A stretch of 35,834 bases of DNA from a virus: positions 1 through 35,834 of IMG/VR virus record IMGVR_UViG_3300029319_000185. One strand, given 5' to 3'. The notes below the pieces were generated by a model that ran no database searches, was not told the DNA's origin, and saw only the letters and a list, made by a program, of their open reading frames with translations. A program made the translations under genes and the position numbers. Shown here piece after piece: positions 1 to 35,834 of the stretch. How positions within the stretch are numbered: the first letter of the stretch is position 1; every line of letters begins with the position of its first letter.

Positions 1-640
1 GTAGAGCAAGCAGGCAATACAGACAATTTACTATTTACTTCAGTAAGAACCGCAGATGGTTCTGATTGGACAACTGCTGCTCACAGGATCCAAAGAAAAG
101 TTGATTCAACCAAAATGGGTTTTATTCAATTTGGGCATCATACCGCAACAAATGGCAACACTATAACTTTTGGAGAGGATGAAACTGAGCGTATGCGTAT
201 TGACGCAGAGGGTCATGTAGGTATTGGGACTACTACACCTAGTGAAGCATTAGAAGTAGCAGGAAAAATTATAGCTACCGATGGAACAGACTTTGTAGAG
301 TTAGTAAACACAGGTGCAATAGAACTAAGAGCTGCTGCAGGTCCATTTATTGATTTTAAAGATGGAGATGAAGACAGAGATTGCAGAATAGGTCAATCTT
401 CTAATGGTTTTATATTTCAAGTAGGAGGTTCAAGTGCTGTAGCTACTAAACTACAGCTTACTTCTGATGGATTAGTACAAATAAATGGAGCTAATTCTGA
501 TGGAGATAGTATATTAAGATTAGAAACAAGTGGAGATAGTGATACCTCTGCTCTTCAATTTGCAGACACCTCTAGTGATAATATAGGTCAGATTGGCTAT
601 GTTCATACTGATGACTCCATGAGGTTTACTGTAAATGCTT
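1..640 (+). repeat. End overlap, copy A (allelic with 35183-35834)
   Basis: Bases 1-640 align to the window end. The first ~250 bases differ at about 3 sites and the last ~170 at about 5 sites. Bases of about 255-470 are strongly diverged but still homologous in protein. Copy A is 12 bp shorter, in frame. Confidence 0.95.
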
Positions 641-1641
641 CTGAAAGATTAAGAATTGATTCATCAGGTGATGTAGGTATAGGAACAGTTAACCCTGAAA
701 CAGCAATACACATAGAAAATACATCTGAGAATCAGATAACTTTAACAAATAATTCTGGTGATTTTAGTAGAATTAGAAGTAAAAGAGGTTTAGTTCTAGC
801 TGCTGACTTTGATACTGATTCGGGCGCGCAACAAAGTTTTATGGCTTTTGAAACTGATAATGCCGAAAGAATAAGAATTATTGCAGGTGGTGATGTAGGT
901 ATTGGAACAACTAGCCCAGATACAAAATTACACGTAAAAGGAACTGATAATAGTAACCCTGTATCTGTTACAATAGAAAATGCTGGTACTAATCAAGCTG
1001 CTTTAAAATTAAAAAATTCTGAAAGAACATTTTCTTTGGAATCAGATGACGACCAATTTAGAATTTTTGATTCTGATGAAAGCGCAACAAGGTTCCAAAT
1101 ACATTCAGATGGTGCAATACGCATAGGTACAACAACAGAGACTGCTTATGGTGCAAAAACATTTATTCAAAACGATGTTAGCGATGCAAATGCTTGTTTA
1201 ACTCTTAGGCATGTGCAAACTGGTGACAGAACTATGATGGCATTTGTAGTTGGTTCAGACGTAGTAGGAAGAATCAATGAAGCAAGTGGTACAATATCTT
1301 TGGTTCAAGGATCTGATTATCGTCTTAAAGAAGACATAATTGATATGGATACTGCTGTTGATAAGGTAAAACTATTAAAGCCACGTAACTATGCTTTAAA
1401 GAAAAATGGAGTTCGTTTTGATGGATTTATTGCTCATGAATTAGCTGAGGTATGTCCTCAGGCTGTATTTGGTGAAAAAGATGCAATGAGAATGGAGCCG
1501 TATGAAGGAGGTACTCGAGAAGTAGAGGACCATCAAGGTATTGACCCAACAAAACTTGTACCACTTTTAACCAAAGCACTACAAGAAGCCCTTACTAAGA
1601 TTGAATCCCTAGAAGCTAGGGTAGCCGTCCTTGAATCCTAA
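1..1641 (+). CDS. Tail fibre / receptor-binding protein, C-terminal part with peptidase S74 chaperone (5' partial)
   Basis: The frame is open from base 1, so the 5' end lies outside the window start and the ATG at 115 is internal. The protein is a chain of beta modules marked by repeated GxVGIGTTxP-type motifs (near 211-237, 676-700 and 892-915), which is common in phage fibre shafts. The C-terminus is an intramolecular chaperone of the peptidase S74 type. The motif SDYRLKEDI places the catalytic Ser at codon 1312-1314 and the Lys at 1327-1329, followed by a FDGFIAHELAEV segment and a terminal coiled coil. In this family the chaperone trimerises the fibre and then cuts itself off at that Ser. 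The gene overlaps the next one by TAATG at 1639-1643. The matching 5' part is the gene at 34682-35834, which reads into this one in frame if the ends are joined (about 717 aa). Function is confident from the S74 motif; the receptor is unknown. Confidence 0.9.
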   Translation, partial: VEQAGNTDNLLFTSVRTADGSDWTTAAHRIQRKVDSTKMGFIQFGHHTATNGNTITFGEDETERMRIDAEGHVGIGTTTPSEALEVAGKIIATDGTDFVELVNTGAIELRAAAGPFIDFKDGDEDRDCRIGQSSNGFIFQVGGSSAVATKLQLTSDGLVQINGANSDGDSILRLETSGDSDTSALQFADTSSDNIGQIGYVHTDDSMRFTVNASERLRIDSSGDVGIGTVNPETAIHIENTSENQITLTNNSGDFSRIRSKRGLVLAADFDTDSGAQQSFMAFETDNAERIRIIAGGDVGIGTTSPDTKLHVKGTDNSNPVSVTIENAGTNQAALKLKNSERTFSLESDDDQFRIFDSDESATRFQIHSDGAIRIGTTTETAYGAKTFIQNDVSDANACLTLRHVQTGDRTMMAFVVGSDVVGRINEASGTISLVQGSDYRLKEDIIDMDTAVDKVKLLKPRNYALKKNGVRFDGFIAHELAEVCPQAVFGEKDAMRMEPYEGGTREVEDHQGIDPTKLVPLLTKALQEALTKIESLEARVAVLES

Positions 1642-2129
1642 TGCCTTATAACCGTTTACTTCAGTCCGTACAGGTAGCCCTTGAGAACAGAACTCAAAGG
1701 GATGCACTACTTGCTATGGATGAGGTCGTGGACTTCTGCATAGAACACGAAAATGGTAAGGTATTCGATGGTTGGGACAAAGAACTAATACGTCTTATGG
1801 TAGCCTATCACTGGGCTAAGAAAACTATCATTGTTCACTACAACGATGACGATGATATACAGGGTGTATTTATGTGGTATAATTGCAACGCAGACGATGG
1901 ATGGGATTTTATAAATAATTGGGAACCTGATAGAAAGGACGGAGATAGTATATTTTTAGCCTTTTTATTTGCTGAAAGTAAGGATGCTTTTAAACAGCTT
2001 ACAGAGGATTTTTTAGAGCGTTGCCCCGAAGCATTAGAAAAAAATAAAATTGGCATACGTCATAGAAGTGGTTTTCCAAAACGAGTAAATTACGACAATA
2101 GACTTTTTAAAAAAATATTAAATAATTAA
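1641..2129 (+). CDS. Hypothetical protein between fibre and internal virion genes (possibly GNAT-like)
   Basis: A 162-residue protein whose ATG overlaps the fibre stop codon (TAATG), so it is probably translated by coupling. It contains an acidic stretch HYNDDDDIQGVFMWYNC in the middle and a basic C-terminus (KRVNYDNRLFKKIL). The alternation of strands and helices and its place just before large internal virion genes recall the small acyltransferase-like proteins at the equivalent site of T7-like phages (gp13 type). That is a weak resemblance judged by eye, not a clear motif match. There is no signal peptide and no membrane segment. The gene itself is convincing from coupling, length and codon use; the function is open. 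Confidence 0.75.
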   Translation: MPYNRLLQSVQVALENRTQRDALLAMDEVVDFCIEHENGKVFDGWDKELIRLMVAYHWAKKTIIVHYNDDDDIQGVFMWYNCNADDGWDFINNWEPDRKDGDSIFLAFLFAESKDAFKQLTEDFLERCPEALEKNKIGIRHRSGFPKRVNYDNRLFKKILNN

Positions 2130-2134
2130 ATATT

Positions 2135-5100
2135 ATGGGTAAGGGAAGAACAACAATACAAGCACCAGATCCTATAAATCCAGGTCAGGCTCAAGGAGAA
2201 TATCTTTTTGGACAAAACTTTACAGATTTTCAAGGTGTTACTGATCCTAGATTACAAAATCGCTTAATAGCATCAGAACGAGCTTTTCGTCCTCAATATA
2301 CTGCTCTGGAGTTAGCTGATATTCAGACACTGGCTCAAGGTACACAAGCAGGTCAAGCGAATCCTGAGTACCAAAGATTACAACAAGAACTTGCTGGATT
2401 AAGGGCAGGCGATCAAACTGCAGTAGCAGGAGCAAATGCAGAATTACAAAGACAATATGAAATTGAAGCAAATGCTATTTATCCAGAGCCAGATAGACCT
2501 GAAAATAAAGATAAAAAACAAGAACGTCTAGATAAGATTCAAAAATACATTGATGATAAACTAGCAAGTCCTGTAGAAAGAAATGCAGCAAGGGCTGAAA
2601 GAATAGCTACACTTGAAGCACAACTTGCTAGTACTCCACAGACCCTTGAGGCAACACCTGGATTATTTGGTTTATTAGGAGATGCTTCAAGAGATGCTGC
2701 TCAGTTGCAAAGAGAACAACTTGGATTACAGCGAGAAGCTGATGTTGCGGCATTAAGAGAGTTCTCACCACAAGTTGTAGACGCTTATCGTCGTGCTGAT
2801 CCATCAAGTGCTAATTTAGCTCAATTATCTGCTGAAAGAGCTGGAGATTTTAGTATTCGTGAACAAGAACTAAAAAATAGTGTTGATGCTTTTAATTCTG
2901 TGCAAAGAAAGTTACTTGAAGCTGGTGGCGATCCTAGAGGAAAAGATTTTAGAAACGCTTATAAAAGCCAAAAATTTAGAGATAGTTTAACAGATGGAGA
3001 AGCGTATTACTTGTATCAAGCAGGTTTCATAAATGCTGATAAATCACCTAAAAAAAGATTTGATGTTGTGGACTTCCAAAAGGAAGCTCGCAATGCTGAA
3101 GCAGATATAAAATCAATACAAGATGGTACGTTTCAACCTGACCCTTCTGACAAAATAGGAGCAGTAGGTGAGACATTGCTTGGTAGGGGAGTACAAGATG
3201 CTAGTTTATCAGAACAAGAGTTAGAAAGAAGAGGACTAGCTGATACCTTTTTTACAGGACAAACTCCTACTAAAGACGAAATAAATTTACGTACTAGAGG
3301 CACAGCCGATGTTTCTTCAGAATTAAGAGATGCTGGTGATACAGAGCAAACAGTGCAAGCGCGAGGCCTAGCTGATGCTTTTGCAGCTCGTGAAGCAGCT
3401 ACAGATGCAGAAGAATCTATACGTACCAGAGGCACAGAAGATATATTTGCAGATAGAGAAGCTGCAACAACAGGCGAACAACGATTACGAGAAAGGGCTA
3501 GGCTAGATACGTTTGCACAGCGTGAGGCTCCTGGCATGAATGAAAAGCGTTTAGCAGAGAGAGCAAGACGAGATATTTTTGCGCAGCGTGAAGGTGCAGG
3601 AATAGGTGAGCAGCGTTTACAAGAAAGAGCAAGACGAGATATTTTTGCACAACGTGAGGGTGCTACTGCAGGAGAAAGGGCTTTACAGGCACGAGGGCTA
3701 GCTAATCTTGGATCCGGACTAGGGGCAGCAAGTATAGCTGAAAGGGCTATACAAGCAAGGTCATTAGGTGATTTAAATGCGCGGTTGCAAGCTGCTTCTG
3801 GAGCTGAACAGGCTTTAGCAGGACGTGGACTTGCAGATGCATTTGCAGGTCTTCGAGCTGCTTCAGGAGCCGAAAGAGCTTTAGCAGGACGTGGACTTGC
3901 AGACATAAATGCACGTCGTGAAGCAGCAAGTTCTGCGGAACGACAGTTGCAGCGAATGGGTATGACTCTTGGTGACCTGTCTCCTACCGAACAAGAGGCA
4001 TTAATTTCTGGCAGAGGTTCTGAATTTATTCAATCCACTGGCGAGCTTACACCTTTAGAATTAAGACGCGCACAACAAGCAGCTAGACAAGCATCGGTTG
4101 CTCGTGGAAGAGGACTAGGACAAGGAGCTTTAGCTGACGAGATAGCAAATCGTTTTGCTCAAGAAACAAATAAAAGAGAACGTGAAATAGCATTAGGAGC
4201 GCAGTTACTAGGTCAAGAAGCAAGTATGCGTGGAACAAGGCTTGGTCAAGGAGCAGGTTTACTACAAGACTCCGAAGCATTAGCAGCACAGCGCAGATTA
4301 GAACAATTACAACGTCAACAATTAGGAACGCAGACTTTAGATCAAGCTGAGGGATTAGCTGCACAGCGTCGTGCTGAACAACTACAGCGTCAGATGTTTG
4401 GATCACAAAATCTTGCTCAGGCGGAGGGTCTAGCAGCACAACGAAGGGCTGAACAATTCCAACGTCAACAGGCTGGACTACAGGGACTTGGTTTAACAGA
4501 TGATCAAATTGCTCGTCGTATGCAACAACAGTTACAACGTCAAATGTTTGGAGCGCAAAATATAGAGCAAGCTGCAGGATTAGCGGAACAACGTAGAGCC
4601 GAACAATTACAACGTCAACAAACCGGCGTTCAGACAACGGCACAGGCTGAAGCATTAGCTGCACAAAGAAGAGCTGAACAGTTACAACGTCAACAAACTG
4701 GTATAGCTACAACTGGACAAGCTGCAGAATTAGCTGCACAAAGAAGAGCCGAACAATTCCAAAGACAGCAAGCTGGTGTAGATACCACTGCACAATCGGA
4801 AGCATTAGCTGCACAAAGAAGGGCTGAGGAGCTTCAGCGTCGTCAAACTGGTATACAAACGCTTGGGCTAGCCGATGATATGGAAGCACGTCGTAGGGCA
4901 GAGGAGCTTCAGCGTCAACAGGCAGGAATACAAACACTTGGACTTGCTGGCGACTTAGAGGCTGCTCGAAGACAAGACCTTTTAAATAGGCAGCGATTTG
5001 GGGTATCTACACTTGGATTAACGGATGACCAAGCTGCTCGTCGTAGAGCCGAACAATTACAAAGACAACAATTTGGAACAAGTGTTCTTGGTCTTACAGA

Positions 5101-11469: not shown

Positions 11470-11925
11470 TTAGAAATCAAAATTTGTACTAACAGTAGCC
11501 ATTGGCGTTTTTGGCTTCTTGCCATGATCGTTGGTAGCATCAGCGTCTTTTGTATCATCGATAGCAAAGAGTCCATTGAGTGCGTACTTACGTGCGTAAG
11601 AACTAGCGGAGCCAGTAATCTGTGAATCGTCCATACCCTTGCGTGACTCAGCTTCTCTTGCAAAGCCCTGTACTTGTATAGAATAATCCGATTCAGCTTC
11701 AGCTAGGACTGCGGTGGCTTTGACATATACTCTGCCCTCTACCCCAACTATATCGTCGGAGAGAACAAGCGTACAACTGTACTCAGATAGTAACGGTTTT
11801 ACTGCTGTGAGTATGTCTTCAGCGGAGCGATACGAGTACCCTCCGAACTTATTAGTCTGCCCCTTAGGAGCTTTGAGGGATGACTGAATCCCTTGTAGTT
11901 TTTCATGTATGGTTCTTTTTTCCAT
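11470..11925 (-). CDS. erf: ERF-family single-strand annealing recombinase
   Basis: A 151-residue protein with the hallmark ERF signature GSASSYARKYAL followed by LFAIDDTKDADAT, and an N-terminal NKFGGYSYRSAEDI segment. ERF proteins anneal complementary single strands during phage recombination and genome circularisation. It is somewhat shorter than P22 Erf (about 204 aa), lacking much of a C-terminal extension. It is preceded by the EndoVII-like gene, which overlaps its start by 23 nt, and a RecB-type exonuclease lies upstream in the operon, giving an exonuclease plus annealing system. The ATG at 11925 has an AT-rich leader (AACTAAACATAAATATG) and no Shine-Dalgarno site. Confidence 0.92.
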   Translation of the reverse strand: MEKRTIHEKLQGIQSSLKAPKGQTNKFGGYSYRSAEDILTAVKPLLSEYSCTLVLSDDIVGVEGRVYVKATAVLAEAESDYSIQVQGFAREAESRKGMDDSQITGSASSYARKYALNGLFAIDDTKDADATNDHGKKPKTPMATVSTNFDF

Positions 11926-12358
11926 ATTTATGTTTAGTTAATTCACGGAATAGTTTGGTTCGTTCTGAGGCGTTAGAACATTCCATGAGTTGTATTCGTT
12001 TCGCCCCTAGATCTACTAAAGTGGCTTTCTGTTCTTGTGATGTCAAGCATTTAAATTTTTTGCATAGTTGAGTTAGTCCTACTGGGTGCAGTACATCGAG
12101 TTGCTTTCTCTCTAAGTAATTGGCTATACTTCTTAGAACGGATGGTAGCTCTTTTGGCTCAACTTGGCATCTTCTGAACGCGAAGTTTTCTATCTTGCCT
12201 AGCAAAGCATTACCTACCCTGGACACTACGCCTCGTACCATACCAGACTTGTGACAGTGATCCACCACCCAGTCCGAGGTCTTGCGTAACAATAAGGGAC
12301 ACCGCTTGGGTGTGTTCTCAGTCCTCCACTTCTTCAGTCTGCTCTGCGGTAGGTACAT
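11903..12358 (-). CDS. Recombination endonuclease VII-like protein with altered zinc site
   Basis: A 151-residue protein with the EndoVII core WVVDHCHKSGMVRGVV followed by GNALLGKIENF, matching the usual DHdH-x-tG-x-vRG-x-l ... N-x-x-LG pattern. These enzymes resolve branched DNA before packaging. The usual C-x2-C and LCxxCN zinc ligands are missing: only one Cys remains before the His motif, and the later pair reads SRVGN. It may fold without zinc or be weakened. The start ATG 12358 lies inside the upstream 70-aa gene by 41 nt; no better start is visible. The C-terminus is basic and helical (KHKYGKKNHT). Homology is good; activity is uncertain. Confidence 0.8.
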   Translation of the reverse strand: MYLPQSRLKKWRTENTPKRCPLLLRKTSDWVVDHCHKSGMVRGVVSRVGNALLGKIENFAFRRCQVEPKELPSVLRSIANYLERKQLDVLHPVGLTQLCKKFKCLTSQEQKATLVDLGAKRIQLMECSNASERTKLFRELTKHKYGKKNHT

Positions 12359-13294: not shown

Positions 13295-14074
13295 TTATTG
13301 TTTTACTACAGGTTGCATTCTTAACATCCAATAAAGGTTTGCAGCAGTCTTGGCTACTCTTATACCCCACTGAGTTTCTTCTTCGGTCCACTCGTAGTGC
13401 ATATGCTCTGCTGTATCGCAGTCCACTATGACCGAGCGTATCTTTGGGAGGTAAGGAAGTTTTTGTAACTGCATAATCATATAAGCCTCGATAGCTAATT
13501 GCGAGCAGTCCTTTTGATATCGTTTAGCCTTGCCCTTAGTATTAACTCTGCACTTGTAATCAGCTAAAAATATTCTTGAGTCCTTCATACCTACGAAGTC
13601 AACTGAGCCAGCTATCTTAATACCACCGTGACTTACAAGTTTCTCACAAGCAATGACTTGCACATTGTTTTCCGTGATCCAATCTAAAAAGGGCAATGCC
13701 CACTTATCCCAACAGGACTCACCAGGATCCTTTTGTATTCCTAGTATCTGATGGTTTATCATACGCTCTATTGTAGCGTGAACCGATGTTCCAAATTCAT
13801 GAGATGGTATTAGCTCACCGTCTTTTGGGTGAGGCCTTGTACCGTATACCATCTCTGTAAGGTCAGACCACGGCAAATCTGGATTGTCTCTCGCAAGTTC
13901 AGTCAGCATTCTAGGCTTGTACACATCATCAAGGAACGAGTCCTTGACTATGCCTAATACAGTTGTAACCGATGGATAAACATCTTCTCCAGCCTTGCGA
14001 GCTTGTGCAGGAGTACCCACCTCGGCCTCAAACTGAGGCTCTGATGGGTTCTTGCAACTGTAAAAATGACTCAT
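13295..14074 (-). CDS. PD-(D/E)XK exonuclease (RecB/Cas4-like)
   Basis: A 259-residue protein with the complete RecB-nuclease motif order: FGTSVHATIE (His99), an E144 in ACEKLV, AGSVDFVG (Asp159), LADYKCR (Asp172 and Lys174), and KDCSQLAIEAY (Gln192). These residues bind metal and cut DNA. Such exonucleases make the single strands that ERF-type proteins anneal, and the ERF gene lies downstream in the same operon. The start overlaps the previous stop as ATGA at 14071-14074. There is no Cas4-type C-terminal Cys cluster, so an iron-sulphur form is unlikely. Confident at fold level. Confidence 0.88.
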   Translation of the reverse strand: MSHFYSCKNPSEPQFEAEVGTPAQARKAGEDVYPSVTTVLGIVKDSFLDDVYKPRMLTELARDNPDLPWSDLTEMVYGTRPHPKDGELIPSHEFGTSVHATIERMINHQILGIQKDPGESCWDKWALPFLDWITENNVQVIACEKLVSHGGIKIAGSVDFVGMKDSRIFLADYKCRVNTKGKAKRYQKDCSQLAIEAYMIMQLQKLPYLPKIRSVIVDCDTAEHMHYEWTEEETQWGIRVAKTAANLYWMLRMQPVVKQ

Positions 14075-15183: not shown

Positions 15184-15399
15184 TTAGTCGGTTATGTTTC
15201 TTAACATATCGTGTTGAATGTCAACAAAGTAATGTTCGTGTTCTATTGGTTTGTCTATATCTCCCTCAAATGACAGTTTGAGCCAATTATTAATTTGAGG
15301 TTGAATAGTAGCTCGTTTTAAATAGCCATTAAAAACATATACATCGTTTTCATCGCCCGATCTTCGTATTGATAATATGGTGATTTGATTATTCCTCAT
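15184..15399 (-). CDS. Hypothetical early protein, 71 aa
   Basis: A small beta-rich protein (NNQITILSIRRSGDENDVYVF) ending KPIEHEHYFVDIQHDMLRN. Its leader ACTAACCAACTAATACTATG contains the last codons and stop of the upstream 80-aa gene, so the two are tightly linked. No family is recognised. It belongs to a run of small early genes of the sort that often modify the host or block defences. Confidence 0.65.
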   Translation of the reverse strand: MRNNQITILSIRRSGDENDVYVFNGYLKRATIQPQINNWLKLSFEGDIDKPIEHEHYFVDIQHDMLRNITD

Positions 15400-15417
15400 A
15401 GTATTAGTTGGTTAGTG
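15396..15417 (-). repeat. Early leader motif, copy 1
   Basis: This 22-bp sequence is identical to 15941-15962. Read on the minus strand it is CACTAACCAACTAATACT followed by ATGA. It ends with the start codon of the 71-aa gene and contains the stop codon of the 80-aa gene. Looser versions stand before most other early genes. Confidence 0.85.
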
Positions 15418-15662: not shown

Positions 15663-15944
15663 TTATTTGATATTGGCTAGATCATAGTCTTGGTCGAACT
15701 GGTAGGATTCGATATTCCACTCGCCCTCTCCGTCATTTACGCAATGAGCTTTTAATTCGTCCATATCTTCAAACCAGTAATGTATGTCGTTATCAAATCC
15801 AAATTGGTTGTCTGACCATTCGTCTTCATCTCCCCAAACTAGATAAGGATCAGCACCAACTGCTACTAAAGTCGGCGGTGATGAATCATCAGAGTTGTCA
15901 CTCCATTTCCATTCGATCCGATATACTTTAATTTCTGTTTTCAT
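15663..15944 (-). CDS. Hypothetical strongly acidic, Trp-rich early protein, 93 aa
   Basis: About 24 Asp/Glu against 6 Lys/Arg (net charge near -18) and six Trp, for example VWGDEDEWSDNQFGFDNDI. No family is recognised. Its small size, early position and high negative charge are shared with phage DNA-mimic proteins such as Ocr, which block restriction enzymes. This is analogy, not homology. The ATG at 15944 is preceded by the exact early leader copy at 15941-15962. Confidence 0.7.
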   Translation of the reverse strand: MKTEIKVYRIEWKWSDNSDDSSPPTLVAVGADPYLVWGDEDEWSDNQFGFDNDIHYWFEDMDELKAHCVNDGEGEWNIESYQFDQDYDLANIK

Positions 15945-15962
15945 AGTATTAGTTGGTTAGTG
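15941..15962 (-). repeat. Early leader motif, copy 2
   Basis: Identical over 22 bp to 15396-15417. It ends with the start codon of the 93-aa acidic gene. It contains no Shine-Dalgarno-like sequence, so the leader itself probably guides ribosomes or a regulator. Confidence 0.85.
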
Positions 15963-20427: not shown

Positions 20428-22507
20428 AAATATTTCAGAGGCTCTTACGTACGTAACTGATGAGCCTGACGTTAAAACTTTACGGTATGCTTACGAGCAA
20501 ACCATTACAGAACTAGAATCATATTTTGATCTATGTCGCACTAGCTACGATGATCGAAGAAACTGGTGGCCTGGCAAGAGCCGTGACCATCGCAAGCACG
20601 GGTCCGATGCTTTTCCTTGGGAAGGTGCAAGTGACAGCGAGTGCCACCTTATAGATGAGAGAATTACAAAGCTTACCTCCCTCTTTATATCTGCCCTTAA
20701 ACGTGCTAACGTAAGGGCGTTCCCAGTAGAAAGTGGTGATATAGCAAGAAGTAAACTGGTATCAGGATTTCTTAAATGGATGATTCGTTCTGGATACATC
20801 CCTCGTTTTTATCGTGAGATGGAACTAGGTGCTAACTATTTACTAGAACGTGGTATTTTAGTTACTTATGTTGGTTGGCATATGGAAGATCGATCTTTTG
20901 AGCAAGAGATAGAATTAGAACAAATAGCACAGATGTCTCCTGAGATAGCAGAACTCATACAGGAAGCAGATAATGATGATGCACTAATTTTATTACTTCA
21001 ACAAACTTTTGGCGGCGTTACAAAAAAACGAGCGAAGAACGCACTCAAAGATCTAAGAAAAAATGGAATGGCGAAACTGCCCGTAGTACGCCGTCAAATT
21101 AATTGCCCAGAAGTAAAAACACTAGCACCTGATGGTGACTTTTTGTTTCCTCCTTATGTTACGGATCCACAACGTGCGCCTTATTGTTTTTGGAAAACTT
21201 ATTACACTCCACAAGAACTAGAATTAAAAGTTACTACTGATGGATGGAATGAAGACTTCGTGGACACAATGATTGAACGATACCGTGGTGTAAATATCGA
21301 TAGTCTTGAGCGTTATGAAGAAGGTCGTCGTAGCATGAGTCTAACAGATACTGCTTATGAAGCTGACGAATTGATAGAAATAATCTATGGTTACCAAAGA
21401 CTTATTAATGAAGAAGATGGTTCAGAAGGTATTTATTGCACAGTCTTTCACAAAAACTTTACTGGAGATGATAGTACAGGCACACCAGCCTTTGCTAAGT
21501 TTGAATTACTTAATGGTTATGAAGATTATCCAGTTGTAGTTACACGTCTTTCTGAGGATACAAAACGTCTTTACGATGTATCAACAGTTCCTAGTATTTT
21601 GCGTGGTATTCAGAACCAAGTAAAAGTAGAGCGTGATTCACGGATTGACCGTAACAGTCTAGCAACGCTACCTCCTATTTTGCACCCAGTAGGTCAAGCA
21701 CCCAATGATTGGGGACCAGGTAGAATGATACCTTATCGTCGTAAGGGTGATCTTGATTTTGCACCTACACCTGCGTTCAATCAAGGTTCTCTTGAAATGG
21801 AAAGAACATTAATAAATCAAGCTGATAGAATGATTGGACTAGATCCTCAGGATCCAATGTCTCAGGCAAGGCAACAGTTCATGGTTGACAAGTTTTTAGG
21901 TCATGTAGCAGAGGTTATTCGTATGTCCTATAAATGCTTCCAAAGATTTGGACCTGATCAAGTATTCTTTCAAGTTACTGGGATTCCTGACCCACAAATA
22001 ATAGATAAAGGTAATCCTAATGAAAACTTCGATATAATGATTAATTTTGATGTGCTTGACACTGATCCTGAAATAGTTGAGAAAAAGTTACAAGGATTTG
22101 TTTCATTACAACAACTTAATGTAAACAATAGAATGAATGTAGATGGGCTTCTTGATATTGCAGCAGCAAGTATTGATCCAGTTATGGCTGATGCAGTTTT
22201 GCAACCAGCACCTGATGCTCAAGAAGAGATGGTTAAAAATGTTACTGATGATCTTACAAAAATATTTGCAGGTATTGAAATGCCGGCACGTCCTGCTGGC
22301 GCACAGATTGCTATGCAAGTGATTCAACAGTACGCTCAACAACCTGATGTTCAACAACGACTACAACAAGATGAAGCATTCCGTGGACGTTTGGAAAAAT
22401 ATCAAGGTCAGTACACATTCCAAATGCAACAAGCACAGAATGCAGAAATTGGTAGAGTTGGCACAGCCCCTGCACAAATGGGTGAAGTCAGTACTCAGAA
22501 TATGTAG
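20417..22507 (+). CDS. Portal protein
   Basis: A 696-residue protein with the portal pattern of podoviruses: WWPG, then DAFPWEGASDSECHLIDERI near the N-terminus, a long clip/wing region (LATLPPILHPVGQAPNDWGP) and a Gln-rich C-terminal helix (QMQQAQNAEIGRVG). Twelve copies form the ring through which DNA enters and leaves the head. The length fits the large portals of P22/SU10-like phages. The position after the terminase and before the scaffold is standard. Its last 26 nt overlap the lysozyme start. Confident. Confidence 0.9.
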   Translation: MENKNISEALTYVTDEPDVKTLRYAYEQTITELESYFDLCRTSYDDRRNWWPGKSRDHRKHGSDAFPWEGASDSECHLIDERITKLTSLFISALKRANVRAFPVESGDIARSKLVSGFLKWMIRSGYIPRFYREMELGANYLLERGILVTYVGWHMEDRSFEQEIELEQIAQMSPEIAELIQEADNDDALILLLQQTFGGVTKKRAKNALKDLRKNGMAKLPVVRRQINCPEVKTLAPDGDFLFPPYVTDPQRAPYCFWKTYYTPQELELKVTTDGWNEDFVDTMIERYRGVNIDSLERYEEGRRSMSLTDTAYEADELIEIIYGYQRLINEEDGSEGIYCTVFHKNFTGDDSTGTPAFAKFELLNGYEDYPVVVTRLSEDTKRLYDVSTVPSILRGIQNQVKVERDSRIDRNSLATLPPILHPVGQAPNDWGPGRMIPYRRKGDLDFAPTPAFNQGSLEMERTLINQADRMIGLDPQDPMSQARQQFMVDKFLGHVAEVIRMSYKCFQRFGPDQVFFQVTGIPDPQIIDKGNPNENFDIMINFDVLDTDPEIVEKKLQGFVSLQQLNVNNRMNVDGLLDIAAASIDPVMADAVLQPAPDAQEEMVKNVTDDLTKIFAGIEMPARPAGAQIAMQVIQQYAQQPDVQQRLQQDEAFRGRLEKYQGQYTFQMQQAQNAEIGRVGTAPAQMGEVSTQNM

Positions 22508-23072
22508 TATTGTACTAATACTCTGTTGTTCAACAAGTTACACAATGGCAGACAATAAGACACCTAAAGAATTAGCTAATCGTCGAGTTAAAGAGCAACG
22601 CTCTAAGAACTATTTTAATATGTTCAAGCTAAATGAGGGTAATAAACCAAAGGTTTACAAGGATAGTAAAGGTAATCGAACTATAGGCATAGGATTTAAT
22701 CTTGAAGACGCAGGCAACAAAAAGTTTTTACAAGAACAAGGTATTGATATAAACGAATTATTTAAGGGTCGAGAACTTACTGACAAAGAAACAAAAACTC
22801 TTTATAATCATAGCCTTAGGCAAGCATTTGCTGATGCACAAAAATTTGATCCAAATTTAGCTAAACGCCCAGAGGCAGCAAGAATGGCAATAGTTGACAT
22901 GGCTTTTAACCTAGGTTTAACAAAGTTAAATAAATTTGTAGAAATGAAAAAAGCGTTAATGAATAATGATTATCAAAAAGCTGCTGATGAAATGGTTGAC
23001 AGTAACTGGTACAAACAAGTAAAGTCCAGAGGACCAAGAATGGTAGAGATAATGCGTTCAGCATCAAGATAA
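22482..23072 (+). CDS. T4-type lysozyme (endolysin) with N-terminal signal or signal-anchor
   Basis: The catalytic triad of phage lysozyme (GH24) is complete: LNEG (Glu52), 8 residues, YKD (Asp61), 5 residues, Thr67 in GNRTIGIGF, with the T4 lysozyme spacing. I choose GTG 22482, because it gives a basic, hydrophobic N-terminus (KSVLRICSIVLILCC, then STSYTMA) typical of a secreted or signal-arrest-release endolysin. ATG 22545 would give a cytoplasmic form without it. An ATG at 22347 lies inside the portal gene and is less likely. Three Cys near the signal could matter for activation. The gene lies between portal and scaffold, far from the holin at 29278. It cleaves peptidoglycan at lysis. Confidence 0.9.
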   Translation: MKSVLRICSIVLILCCSTSYTMADNKTPKELANRRVKEQRSKNYFNMFKLNEGNKPKVYKDSKGNRTIGIGFNLEDAGNKKFLQEQGIDINELFKGRELTDKETKTLYNHSLRQAFADAQKFDPNLAKRPEAARMAIVDMAFNLGLTKLNKFVEMKKALMNNDYQKAADEMVDSNWYKQVKSRGPRMVEIMRSASR

Positions 23073-27561: not shown

Positions 27562-28902
27562 ATGCACACTAGCCTCGATTCAGCCCTAGGTCGGCAGAGA
27601 CGGCTGAACCAAATAGGAGAGACTATTAACTCAATAGCTACTCCTGCTGCTGCGTTTAGTCTTAGAAGTCTTACTGGTGGTGACCCTTTGGCGGTGCGTG
27701 TACGCAGGTCAGGCGATAATACCGACCAAGATTTTACTGTATCTGAAGTAGCTTCTGGGGCTTTACTTAATTACATAAATGAAGATGTTGTAACTGAGCA
27801 ATCGGACTTTACATCTGGCGTAGATAGTTACGCAAAAGATAGTCAAGGAACAGTTAGCAGAGAGGCAAGTTTTGAAGGTAAAAGTGATGTATTAAAATAT
27901 GAGTTTGCATCGAGTGGTAGATTTGGAATTAAAAAAACTAGTATAGCTTTAGACCTCACTTCTAGTTATACAATAACTTTTGAGTACTATGCTGATACTG
28001 CGTATAATGGTAAATTTTGGGGAATAGAAGATGCATTTGCAGATAGAGTAAGTGCCTCAAATACTCCTGCTGTTGTATCAGATGCTTGGACCTCCGTTAC
28101 TCTCAATGTTCCAAGTGGAAGAACAACTGGTGTAACAAGTTTACATATTAGATTACAAGCAGGTACTAGTGATACTTTTGGTCTTACGGGCATAACAGCA
28201 AATGTAAGATTCAAAAACATTGTTGTTACTCAAACAACTGGTTCTGGTTTTGTTGATACTTGGTATGACCAATCAGGCAATGATAGACACGCTGTTCAAA
28301 ATACTGATGCACAGCAACCTATTATTGTTGAATCAGGAACTTTTCAAGATGGTTTAAAATTTACTCACGCTGACACTACCAATGGAAAAAGATTATCTTT
28401 TGACCGAGACACATCACAACTAGGAACTGAATTTGCTTTGGTTTGGGTAGGATTTTATACAGGCAGTAGCGGCACTATGAAAAATATATTAGGAGCAACT
28501 AGAGGCGTACAAGGATACAACTCTGGCTCAGTAAGTATAACTGCAACACCCAGTAGTAATCAATTTAGCTTTGTAAATGAACAATCAGGCTCAGCTCGCC
28601 AAATTTTAAATGGAACACAAACTCTTGCAGCAGAGACGCGAGGTGTTGTGTTTGCAAGCTACGATGACGATGCAGTATTAATTTCTGTAAATGGAAATTC
28701 CAACACATCTACATTTTCTAGTACAGTTTTAACAAATACTCGTGACTTTAACATTATGAGTGCAACTTCAACTGGCGGTACTTATAGAACTTTAGAAAGT
28801 GCGCCAGGTACTTGTTCAGAAGTAATAGTATATGATACTAATCAAGTTAATAATCGTACAAGCATAGAAACCAATATAATTAACCATTATTCAATATCTT
28901 AA
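27562..28902 (+). CDS. Adhesin-like tail protein with concanavalin/LamG-type lectin and carbohydrate-binding domains
   Basis: A 446-residue protein. After an N-terminal piece, AFSLRSLTGGDPLAVRVRRS, comes a beta-sandwich of about residues 75-220 resembling a carbohydrate-binding module (SSYTITFEYYADTAYNGKFW). Then comes a lectin-like domain introduced by FVDTWYDQSGNDRHAVQ, typical of LamG/concanavalin-like proteins. The carbohydrate-binding module appears inserted between two halves of a motif (AVRVRRSGDN ... TWYDQSGN) normally close together. It could be a second receptor-binding protein besides the S74 fibre. No clear catalytic residues. It couples by TAATG to the next gene. Confidence 0.75.
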   Translation: MHTSLDSALGRQRRLNQIGETINSIATPAAAFSLRSLTGGDPLAVRVRRSGDNTDQDFTVSEVASGALLNYINEDVVTEQSDFTSGVDSYAKDSQGTVSREASFEGKSDVLKYEFASSGRFGIKKTSIALDLTSSYTITFEYYADTAYNGKFWGIEDAFADRVSASNTPAVVSDAWTSVTLNVPSGRTTGVTSLHIRLQAGTSDTFGLTGITANVRFKNIVVTQTTGSGFVDTWYDQSGNDRHAVQNTDAQQPIIVESGTFQDGLKFTHADTTNGKRLSFDRDTSQLGTEFALVWVGFYTGSSGTMKNILGATRGVQGYNSGSVSITATPSSNQFSFVNEQSGSARQILNGTQTLAAETRGVVFASYDDDAVLISVNGNSNTSTFSSTVLTNTRDFNIMSATSTGGTYRTLESAPGTCSEVIVYDTNQVNNRTSIETNIINHYSIS

Positions 28903-32267: not shown

Positions 32268-34682
32268 ATGTCAAGGTATTCTACATACGGCAGTCTTGAT
32301 GACCGCATTGACCAAGATGGCGATGTAGGTTTTGTTGGTTTTAACAACAGGCTACGCCCTGATCAGTTACCTACTGGTATGCTTGCTGATGCTCAGAACA
32401 TACGCACGGATCGTAGTGGACAGGCGCAAGTACGTAAGGGTGTAGATCTAGTCAATGCTCCACTATCTGTGGGTCCTGATGCAATGACATTACCTTTCTT
32501 TATACTTGATGCTACTAAGACTACGAATAGTACAGCAATAAGTAGCGGTGAATTGTTATTAAACTTCGCATCCGATCATACATTAGAGGCAGGAGCAACT
32601 GCTCAAGTAAAATTAAGTGGACTTAGTGGTGTTGTTCCTACAAGCGCAGATGGAAGATATACAGCCACTGTAGTAGATACAGACACAATAAAACTAACCG
32701 ACAAGACTTATACGAATGCTGCTAGTGGAAATGTAACTGTAGAGATACCTACATTAGATGACACTGCTGTTAATAACATATACGGATCTACAGATTTTTC
32801 TGACCCAAACCAAGCAAGCACTCAATATATTATACTTAGTTCAAATACCAAGGCAGTAGGGATTGATATAGCTAATGGTATTACTTTTGATATAGGGTAT
32901 CCATCTTTACTAAGTGTTTCTCAAAATGTAGATATGATTCAAGCCTTTAATAAGGTGTTTATATTTAGAGAGGGTAATACTGCTTTAGAAAATAATCTTA
33001 GAATATCGACAATTAGTGCAGCTTCTGTTTCTAGTAGTACTGATTTAGTTACTATAACAACTAGCACTAATCATAATCTATCAACTGGTGATCTTGTTAC
33101 AATTAGCGGAGTTCTGGGTGCAGGCACAGATGGAGCATTTACTAGCCTTGACCCAAATGGTTCAAGTAAAAATATTACAAAAACTGGAGACACTACGTTT
33201 ACCTTTGCCTTAGATGTTGACGGAAATGAAACCTATACGGTTTCTAGTTCTTCTATAGTAGCTACGGACTTTGCAAAAGTACAAAGTGGCACATATGCAC
33301 AACCAGTAGAGCTTGATTCAACAGGTTTTACTATTACTAATGGATTAGCTACTGTTACTGTTTCTAATACACTTGCTGCTGGTGATAATGTTATACTAAC
33401 ATCAGCAGGAAGTAGCACACTAACACAGGGAGATTCTTTTGTAGTTTCAGAAGCGTCCTCATCAGCATTTAAATTCTTTGTAAATACTGATGATGTTACT
33501 AACCAAACTGATGTACATTTTACAAAACGAGTATCCGTAGGTCTTGGCTTTATTCACATGCCGGCACCACCCTTTGCTACATATCACCAGCGTAGATTAA
33601 TTATGCCCTTTAAATTTGTGTCTACTGGCACTGATACATTTGAAACTAGAAATATACTTGATGAAGTTATAGCATCCGATGTACTAGACACTGATACTTA
33701 TGATCAGGTCTACGCTCAATATAGATTTAACGCAGGAACATCAGATTTTGTTGTAGCACTGCATTCATTTGCTGAGGACAGATTACTAGTATTTAATCGT
33801 AACAGTATTCACATAGTTACTAACACTACTGATTTAAAGGGTGCTAGTACACAAATTTTAACGGATGAGGTGGGCTGTGTGGCTCGCAAATCTATTGAGC
33901 AGGTTGGTAATCAGGTTATTTTCTTGTCCGATAATGGAGTATATGGAACGCAATTCTTGGATGAATACAATCTGCGTGGTACAGAGACACCTCTTAGCGA
34001 GCCAATAAACGAGAGCATACAAAGAATAAATAAAAATGCACAAGAGAACGCAGTAGCTGTTTATTTTGATAACAGGTACTACATAGCTGTACCTTTGGAT
34101 AGTTCTACTAATAATAACGCAATATTAATATATAACTTCCTTAACAAACAATGGGAAAGCATTGATACAGTAAATGACGCTAACTATCATGTTAGTAACT
34201 TATTGGTGCTTGGCGAAGGTGACAAACGTGGAGTATATGCAGTCAACGATATAGGTGGCGTTCATAGGATTGATCATAGGCTTGATGGTGTGGATCGAGT
34301 TATTACACAAATAGGAGGTTCTGAGCTAAGTCTTCAGATCCCTGGTGCTTTGACTACAAGACAATATACACTTGGCACCCTTGATCGTAAACGCTGGAAG
34401 GAGTTCGACTTTCATATTCAATCCAGTGACTTGAATACTTCTGACCTTAACATTGACTTCGAAACAGAGAACCCAGATGATACAGGAAGTATAGGGACTT
34501 TATCTGATTTTAATGGTGAAGTATTAGCAATAGACGAAGATGTTTCCATCCGTGGTAGAATAGGTAACAGACGAGGATACGGAATACAATTTACATTTAA
34601 TAATACAGTAGGAAGGCCCATTATACGAGCAACAGAAGTACAAGGGGCAACTACTATGAGATCAACAAATAAGGCAATATAA
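32268..34682 (+). CDS. Putative tail nozzle (tail tube B-like) beta-propeller protein
   Basis: An 804-residue protein. The N-terminus has NNRLRPDQLPTGMLADAQNI and an RTDRSGQAQVRKGVD strand, a pattern of short-tail nozzle proteins. The second half has propeller-type blades (LLVFNRNSIHIVTNTT, VIFLSDNGVYGTQFL, YYIAVPLDSSTNNNAILIYN). Three small beta domains of about 55-65 residues, with H-x-L-x-x-G-D-x-V-x-I-S-type cores, are inserted in the first half (near 32520-32730, 33040-33240 and 33330-33500). The nozzle closes the DNA channel and carries the fibres; the fibre gene follows directly by TAATG. Fold call is moderate. Confidence 0.75.
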   Translation: MSRYSTYGSLDDRIDQDGDVGFVGFNNRLRPDQLPTGMLADAQNIRTDRSGQAQVRKGVDLVNAPLSVGPDAMTLPFFILDATKTTNSTAISSGELLLNFASDHTLEAGATAQVKLSGLSGVVPTSADGRYTATVVDTDTIKLTDKTYTNAASGNVTVEIPTLDDTAVNNIYGSTDFSDPNQASTQYIILSSNTKAVGIDIANGITFDIGYPSLLSVSQNVDMIQAFNKVFIFREGNTALENNLRISTISAASVSSSTDLVTITTSTNHNLSTGDLVTISGVLGAGTDGAFTSLDPNGSSKNITKTGDTTFTFALDVDGNETYTVSSSSIVATDFAKVQSGTYAQPVELDSTGFTITNGLATVTVSNTLAAGDNVILTSAGSSTLTQGDSFVVSEASSSAFKFFVNTDDVTNQTDVHFTKRVSVGLGFIHMPAPPFATYHQRRLIMPFKFVSTGTDTFETRNILDEVIASDVLDTDTYDQVYAQYRFNAGTSDFVVALHSFAEDRLLVFNRNSIHIVTNTTDLKGASTQILTDEVGCVARKSIEQVGNQVIFLSDNGVYGTQFLDEYNLRGTETPLSEPINESIQRINKNAQENAVAVYFDNRYYIAVPLDSSTNNNAILIYNFLNKQWESIDTVNDANYHVSNLLVLGEGDKRGVYAVNDIGGVHRIDHRLDGVDRVITQIGGSELSLQIPGALTTRQYTLGTLDRKRWKEFDFHIQSSDLNTSDLNIDFETENPDDTGSIGTLSDFNGEVLAIDEDVSIRGRIGNRRGYGIQFTFNNTVGRPIIRATEVQGATTMRSTNKAI

Positions 34683-35834
34683 TGGCAATATTATCAAAAG
34701 GAAATACATTTGCAACAGGGGACCAAGTAACGGCCCTAAAACTTAACAATTTAGTAGATAACTCTACATTTGCATCTGGTGCAGTAGATGATTCTACTAC
34801 TCAGCTAGACGGCAGTGGACGCATTATAGTCAAGGATGGAGGTATAACCTCAGCTAAACTTAACCTTAGCGCAACAGGAGCATCTCAAAATATAGCTACT
34901 TTTAAAACAACGCAGACGCATGACAGTGGTACAGTTGGTAGATCACTAGATATAAGAACTCCAGCTAGTACAACAGATATTAATTCACCTTTTGAGATTC
35001 ATACAGAAAATGCAATTCAATTTATAGTTGATGATCATACAGTTACAATAGATTCTGATGGTAAAACAAAATTTGGCACTGGTAACATAGAGAGTACCAA
35101 CACTAGCTTGTTCCAAGTAAATATTAATACTGATGCTGTTTTAGGTACAACCGCAGGCAACGAACAAGGTATTCTTAGGTTAGTAGAGCAAGCAGGCAAT
35201 ACAGACAATTTACTATTTACTTCAGTAAGAACCGCAGATGGTTCTGATTGGACAACTGCAGCTCACAGGATCCAAAGAAAAGTTGATTCAACCAAAATGG
35301 GTTTTATTCAATTTGGGCATCATACTGAAACAAATGGCAACACTATAACTTTTGGAGAGGATGAAACTGAGCGTATGCGTATTGACGCAGAGGGTCATGT
35401 AGGTATTGGGACTACTACACCTAGTGAAGCATTACAAGTGGTAGGAGATATAAAAGCTACTGACACAACTGATTCTGTAGTCATAAGACAAAATGGATCA
35501 ATAGAGCTTAATCGAGCATCTAATCCATTTATTGATTTTAAAAACGCAGCTGGCGACGATCATGATTGTCGAATAATTCAAGCTAGCGATGGTTTTCAAT
35601 TCTTAACAGGTGGTAATGATTTATCTGGAGGCCCTAAAGTTAGAGTAGTTCTTACTTCTGATGGATTATTACAAGTAAATGGAGCTACTTCTGATGGAGA
35701 TAGTATATTAAGATTAGAAACAAGTGGAGATAGTGATACTTCTGCTCTTCAATTTGGAGACACCTCTAGTGATAATATAGGTCAGATTGGCTATGTTCAT
35801 ACTGATGACTCCATGAGGTTTACTGTAAATGCTT
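34682..35834 (+). CDS. Tail fibre / receptor-binding protein, N-terminal part (3' partial, continues at base 1)
   Basis: ATG 34682 overlaps the nozzle stop (TAATG). The N-terminus, FATGDQVTALKLNNLVDNST, is followed by SGRIIVKDGGITSAKLN, a virion-attachment domain common in marine phage fibres. Beta modules follow, with GHVGIGTTTPSEALQVVGD near 35395-35450. The frame is open to the last base. From 35183 on it repeats bases 1-640 in the same frame and codon phase, with a diverged module near 35440-35660. It is therefore the front of the S74-ended gene at 1-1641, or a first repeat copy of it. Confidence 0.9.
   Translation, partial: MAILSKGNTFATGDQVTALKLNNLVDNSTFASGAVDDSTTQLDGSGRIIVKDGGITSAKLNLSATGASQNIATFKTTQTHDSGTVGRSLDIRTPASTTDINSPFEIHTENAIQFIVDDHTVTIDSDGKTKFGTGNIESTNTSLFQVNINTDAVLGTTAGNEQGILRLVEQAGNTDNLLFTSVRTADGSDWTTAAHRIQRKVDSTKMGFIQFGHHTETNGNTITFGEDETERMRIDAEGHVGIGTTTPSEALQVVGDIKATDTTDSVVIRQNGSIELNRASNPFIDFKNAAGDDHDCRIIQASDGFQFLTGGNDLSGGPKVRVVLTSDGLLQVNGATSDGDSILRLETSGDSDTSALQFGDTSSDNIGQIGYVHTDDSMRFTVNA
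35183..35834 (+). repeat. End overlap, copy B (allelic with 1-640)
   Basis: Same gene, same frame and same flanks as 1-640, but the middle module reads LQVVGDIKATDTTDSVVI and so on instead of LEVAGKIIATDGTDFVEL. Both share PFIDFK, D-CRI and LTSDGL anchors. This indicates either a circular contig with two fibre alleles or a true in-gene duplication. Confidence 0.95.

Follow-up and report, generated by a model that had tools for sequence, protein, structure and literature searches.

Divergent contig ends point to two strain alleles of one tail-fibre domain in a circular phage genome

The window analysed here (the whole stretch of DNA, a 35,834-base IMG/VR record that is classed there as linear) is best explained as a circular phage genome from a sample that would hold at least two co-occurring strains, each with a different version of one tail-fibre domain, so that the contig ends differ by strain; we put the probability of this reading at roughly 0.84. 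The window would then run exactly once around a circular-mapping tailed-phage genome, cut open inside an S74 tail-fibre gene, and the two versions, A and B, would lie in different genomes. The ends carry the following parts of this gene.

34682–35834, plus strand: 5′ part of the tail-fibre gene, with allele B last (384 aa, running off the window end; ORF and translation, PHROG tail-fibre matches, N-terminus conserved in relatives)
1–1641, plus strand: 3′ part of this gene, with allele A first (546 aa, running in from the window start) and a C-terminal S74 chaperone domain (Pfam, PHROG)
253–456, plus strand: diverged module of allele A (41% nucleotide difference and dS ~1.1 relative to allele B)
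35435–35650, plus strand: diverged module of allele B, which exceeds that of A by 12 bp in frame (alignment with allele A)

Window positions 1–640 and 35183–35834 align over their full length at 86.8% identity (blastn, MAFFT), and both are open in one frame of one tail-fibre gene. The left flank (1–252) differs at 3 of 252 nucleotides (1.2%) and the right flank (457–639) at 5 of 183 (2.7%), against 83 of 204 nucleotides (40.7%) plus four gap codons in the module (253–456, corresponding to 35435–35650); dS between A and B is 1.09 in the module and 0.03 in the flanks. The alignment and the shared open frame confirm the original prediction that the same gene segment stands at both ends in the same codon phase, with near-identical flanks around a diverged block and a 12-bp in-frame length difference (the four gap codons), and the block limits that it gave, 255–470, were right to within ~15 bp. 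An error of sequencing or assembly, or a chimera of unrelated phages, would leave no biological alleles to explain and is in keeping with the break itself being an assembly artefact, yet both versions are open frames that differ in length in frame and share domain residues, and 17 of the 52 changed module codons are synonymous, a pattern that random error would not produce. We regard this explanation as highly improbable.

Joined with a single module, the fibre is 713 aa (A) or 717 aa (B) long with no inner stop. Its 3′ part matches Pfam Peptidase_S74 at residues 438–489 (1.1e-7, 32.5 bits versus a cut-off of 22) and PHROG tail fibre (1.4e-54), and the SDxxxK autoproteolysis motif is present as SDYRLK (residue 605 in the 713-aa version with one module). 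The module occupies approximately residues 252–323 of 713, mid-fibre and well away from the C-terminal S74 end, and the domain may influence binding, the receptor-binding surface and host-range diversification of the original prediction being possibilities only; an AlphaFold monomer model of the A-side fibre had a mean pLDDT of 49.5, which is low confidence. At the amino-acid level the A and B modules are ~49% identical, and their identities to the modules of two other phages (L004 and L008) are 43–52%, with flanks at 97–99% nucleotide identity. Since A and B are as unlike as the modules of other phages between flanks this similar, the sequence comparison points firmly to replacement of the module, rather than drift after copying, as the source of its divergence. 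A plain duplication would be expected to diverge evenly, yet the difference is 1–3% in the flanks and 41% in the core.

The variants might also be made by targeted diversification, through a diversity-generating retroelement or an invertible cassette within the fibre, and the limitation of the variation to one stretch of the fibre gene would suit such a system. However, the proteins scanned (Pfam and PHROG families) included no invertase or integrase and no reverse transcriptase, near the fibre or elsewhere. Against a retroelement, 29 of the 84 changes fall at adenines of allele A, with all four bases affected and in-frame indels besides; against an invertible cassette, the inverted-repeat check of the fibre 5′ part found just a 13-bp imperfect inverted repeat and no long ones. 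Targeted diversification is thus largely refuted, and we allow it a very slight probability.

The outermost identical runs of the overlap, a detail absent from the original description, are exactly 77 bp each, and after the 5′ run the first difference between A and B falls at base 78.

1–77, plus strand: shared k-mer X, a graph branch vertex (run lengths, k = 77 graph boundary)
35183–35259, plus strand: other copy of shared k-mer X (run lengths, k = 77 graph)
564–640, plus strand: shared k-mer Y, which recurs unchanged as the last 77 window bases (run lengths, k = 77 graph)
35758–35834, plus strand: shared k-mer Y at the window end, a graph merge vertex (run lengths, k = 77 graph)

We modelled the fibre neighbourhood, carrying either single-module allele, as a small de Bruijn graph and compared k = 55, 77, 99 and 127. 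In the k = 77 graph the first A-only unitig starts at window base 1 and the last B-only unitig ends at base 35834, whereas the break positions in the k = 55, 99 and 127 graphs differ from the window ends. Given ends of exactly 77 bp and k = 77 breaks at both 1 and 35834, we conclude that each end of the window marks a branch point in the assembly graph and not a biological or physical terminus. A genome end formed by a direct terminal repeat was rejected, as the two ends are not an identical repeat (they match at 86.8% and differ in length by 12 bp). A k of 77 is a standard SPAdes value and appears in the k list of PMC10914622; metaSPAdes contigs have shared ends of length maxK at breaks (PMC10914622), and at strain bubbles an assembler takes one branch or stops (PMC10563150). 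The end-overlap breaks treated by COBRA (PMC10914622) resemble those described here in that exactly maxK bases are common to contig ends at branch points, but here the shared k-mers bound a diverged overlap on its outer sides, inside a single contig. With two strains in the sample, the two versions would form a bubble in the k = 77 graph, the contig exiting to the right through B and re-entering from the left through A, and it would stop where each branch meets shared sequence.

An ordinary overlap had been expected to be identical, an expectation contradicted by five of six near-complete relatives (G001 and G003–G006), whose end regions match at 94–99% and not exactly. The imperfect overlaps of G001 and G006 start with an exact 127-bp run and adjoin the homologue of window 27562–28902, another virion protein. 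This frequency of imperfect ends among the near-complete relatives suggests that strain mixtures are a common source of them, some falling at variable structural genes. Viral contigs classed as ‘linear’ whose ends overlap imperfectly can be read as closed genomes that carry two strain alleles, and an exact-k end run quickly reveals whether an end is a graph break.

Exact-k ends alone cannot separate a strain bubble from a repeat, because both predict branch ends of length k. In a tandem internal duplication, one fibre gene would carry B and then A across an unseen linker, and the contig would have broken in the repeats: repeats of at least k also yield ends of exactly k, and fibres in the group gain and lose modules. 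A long internal fibre duplication occurs in one of 59 relatives (L031, fibre at 1579–2859), where it spans 229 bp at 80% identity and provides a precedent. Such a fibre would nevertheless need at least 930 aa here, against 199–591 aa for the largest fibre-region ORF in the 59 relatives, so that the single-module gene of the window is already the longest. Moreover, an identical run of 106 bp (147–252) ends at the left edge of the module, and the assembler seems to have carried both copies through it; paired reads phasing both copies through this run should reach, and expose, the linker of a tandem, whereas a strain bubble should expose only its own ends. Counted against the allele reading is the oddity that the assembler took different branches on the two sides. 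On the combined strength of fibre size in relatives, replacement-like divergence and this assembly logic, we favour two strain alleles and consider tandem duplication unlikely. No other contig turned up in exact IMG/VR searches with the shared runs, although near records may be missing from the set searched, and IMG/VR searches for contigs with the same module or the shared runs found none of the same species.

The genes on either side of the fibre bear on the shape of the genome.

32268–34682, plus strand: upstream neighbour, an 804-aa tail protein, head closure-like, directly 5′ of the fibre in relatives (phrog_578, synteny)
1641–2129, plus strand: downstream neighbour, a 162-aa protein, 3′ of the fibre region in relatives (synteny)

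In 59 relatives (including the L003 layout) the 804-aa gene, a fibre region of at least one ORF and the 162-aa gene are consecutive. Because these two genes bracket the fibre region throughout the relatives, the genome circle closes, as judged from gene order, through the fibre gene at ~35.18 kb; its size would be ~35,182 bp with allele A and 35,194 bp with allele B. Phage C75C1 (OQ984151.1), whose record is circular, shares 66.8% major head protein identity with the window and has a similar gene order (head closure, tail fibre, structural genes, DnaB, SSB, Erf, endonuclease VII, exonuclease); it differs in its own fibre gene, which is short (735 bp) and has only distant fibre kinship. The reading preferred in the original prediction, a circle of ~35.2 kb with population alleles of a fibre module exchanged by recombination between conserved flanks, is therefore the best supported, drawing on synteny, breaks at two-allele k = 77 branches and module replacement, while the internal duplication that it offered as the other choice persists as an unlikely alternative.

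Several further observations concern the window and its relatives. The 804-aa gene is itself mosaic: its counterparts in L007 (2693–5104) and L042 (890–3547) contain a diverged block, whereas the surrounding sequence of these two relatives is 96–98% identical. Homologues of window 27562–28902 (L177, L178, L187, L188) have repeated C-terminal domains with WYDQSG repeats. Degenerate tandem repeats with ~66-bp and 75-bp periods lie at 3490–5071 inside a 1119-aa gene that has no Pfam or PHROG match. An exact 22-bp direct repeat (15396–15417 and 15941–15962) stands near junctions of small minus-strand genes and is possibly regulatory, and a phage lysozyme or endolysin gene (22347–23072) overlaps the end of the preceding 696-aa ORF. 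No RNA families or tRNAs were found in the window. Naming a host was also considered and rejected, since a single capsid relative, from a MAG that carries the label Rickettsiales MED657, is too thin a basis for assignment.

Within the fibre, the left edge of the module coincides with a repeat motif, and divergence begins one residue past it.

217–252, plus strand: VGIGTTTPSEAL motif directly 5′ of the module, allele A copy, putative left swap edge (motif scan; run 147–252 ends here)
35399–35434, plus strand: VGIGTTTPSEAL motif directly 5′ of the module, allele B copy (motif scan, identical runs)

The fibres of L007 and L042, which come from two samples, are 98–99% identical apart from a 222-bp module that L007 has and L042 lacks, and the junction of that module lies inside the same VGIGT motif. 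This junction indicates that module gain or loss at the motif, as read from the aligned fibres, is seen in the phage group. The two versions in the window would have arisen by homologous recombination that replaced the domain beside the conserved VGIGT..P...L motif, and the following products of the phage plausibly helped the exchange.

11470–11925, minus strand: Erf-type single-strand annealing recombinase, which may mediate the module exchange (Pfam ERF 3.9e-38, phrog_155)
11903–12358, minus strand: endonuclease VII-like junction resolvase (Pfam Endonuclease_7 1.2e-8, phrog_423)
13295–14074, minus strand: exonuclease, PD-(D/E)XK (phrog_298, PDDEXK_1)

Erf, exonuclease, SSB and endonuclease VII make a plausible set for short-homology recombination, and we infer their involvement, that of Erf included. 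A broader hypothesis, which we hold only tentatively and think rather doubtful, is that the fibres of the group are built of interchangeable beta domains, with VGIGT..P...L motifs as recurrent recombination joints and a pool of variants in one population generated by cassette exchange and by module gain or loss. An exchange joint at a fibre repeat motif is nonetheless a concrete and testable idea of how fibres diversify.

The ERMRID..G.VGIGT..P...L repeats of the fibre match, by sequence, the solved chains of Bdellovibrio mosaic adhesive trimer (MAT) fibres (bd2133 and relatives). MATs form trimeric beta fibres that carry capping-loop motifs, use domains in mosaic fashion and include an S74 subgroup with SDxxxK, and MAT motifs similar to VGIGT form the capping loops of beta-helix domains (PMC10769870). 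By analogy, the VGIGT motif of the phage fibre and the MAT capping-loop motif may be the same feature. The likeness covers the repeat and the S74 domain only, not the whole protein, and MAT fibres differ in being bacterial surface proteins with signal peptides. A close parallel for the variation itself comes from nearly identical co-occurring marine phages, in which host-recognition genes, including tail fibres, differ (Mizuno et al. 2014, PMC3909814). In those metaviromic islands, as here, the variation lies in tail-fibre genes, with S74 among the fibre domains, and Pfam and PHROG place the module of the window in just such a tail-fibre, host-recognition gene. The islands were, however, detected by read recruitment and affect mostly C-terminal fibre parts, whereas the window holds what appear to be two alleles of one mid-fibre domain inside one contig. 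Within-population fibre variation in marine phages is already established (PMC3909814), and the window would be a clear example of this known kind of variation.
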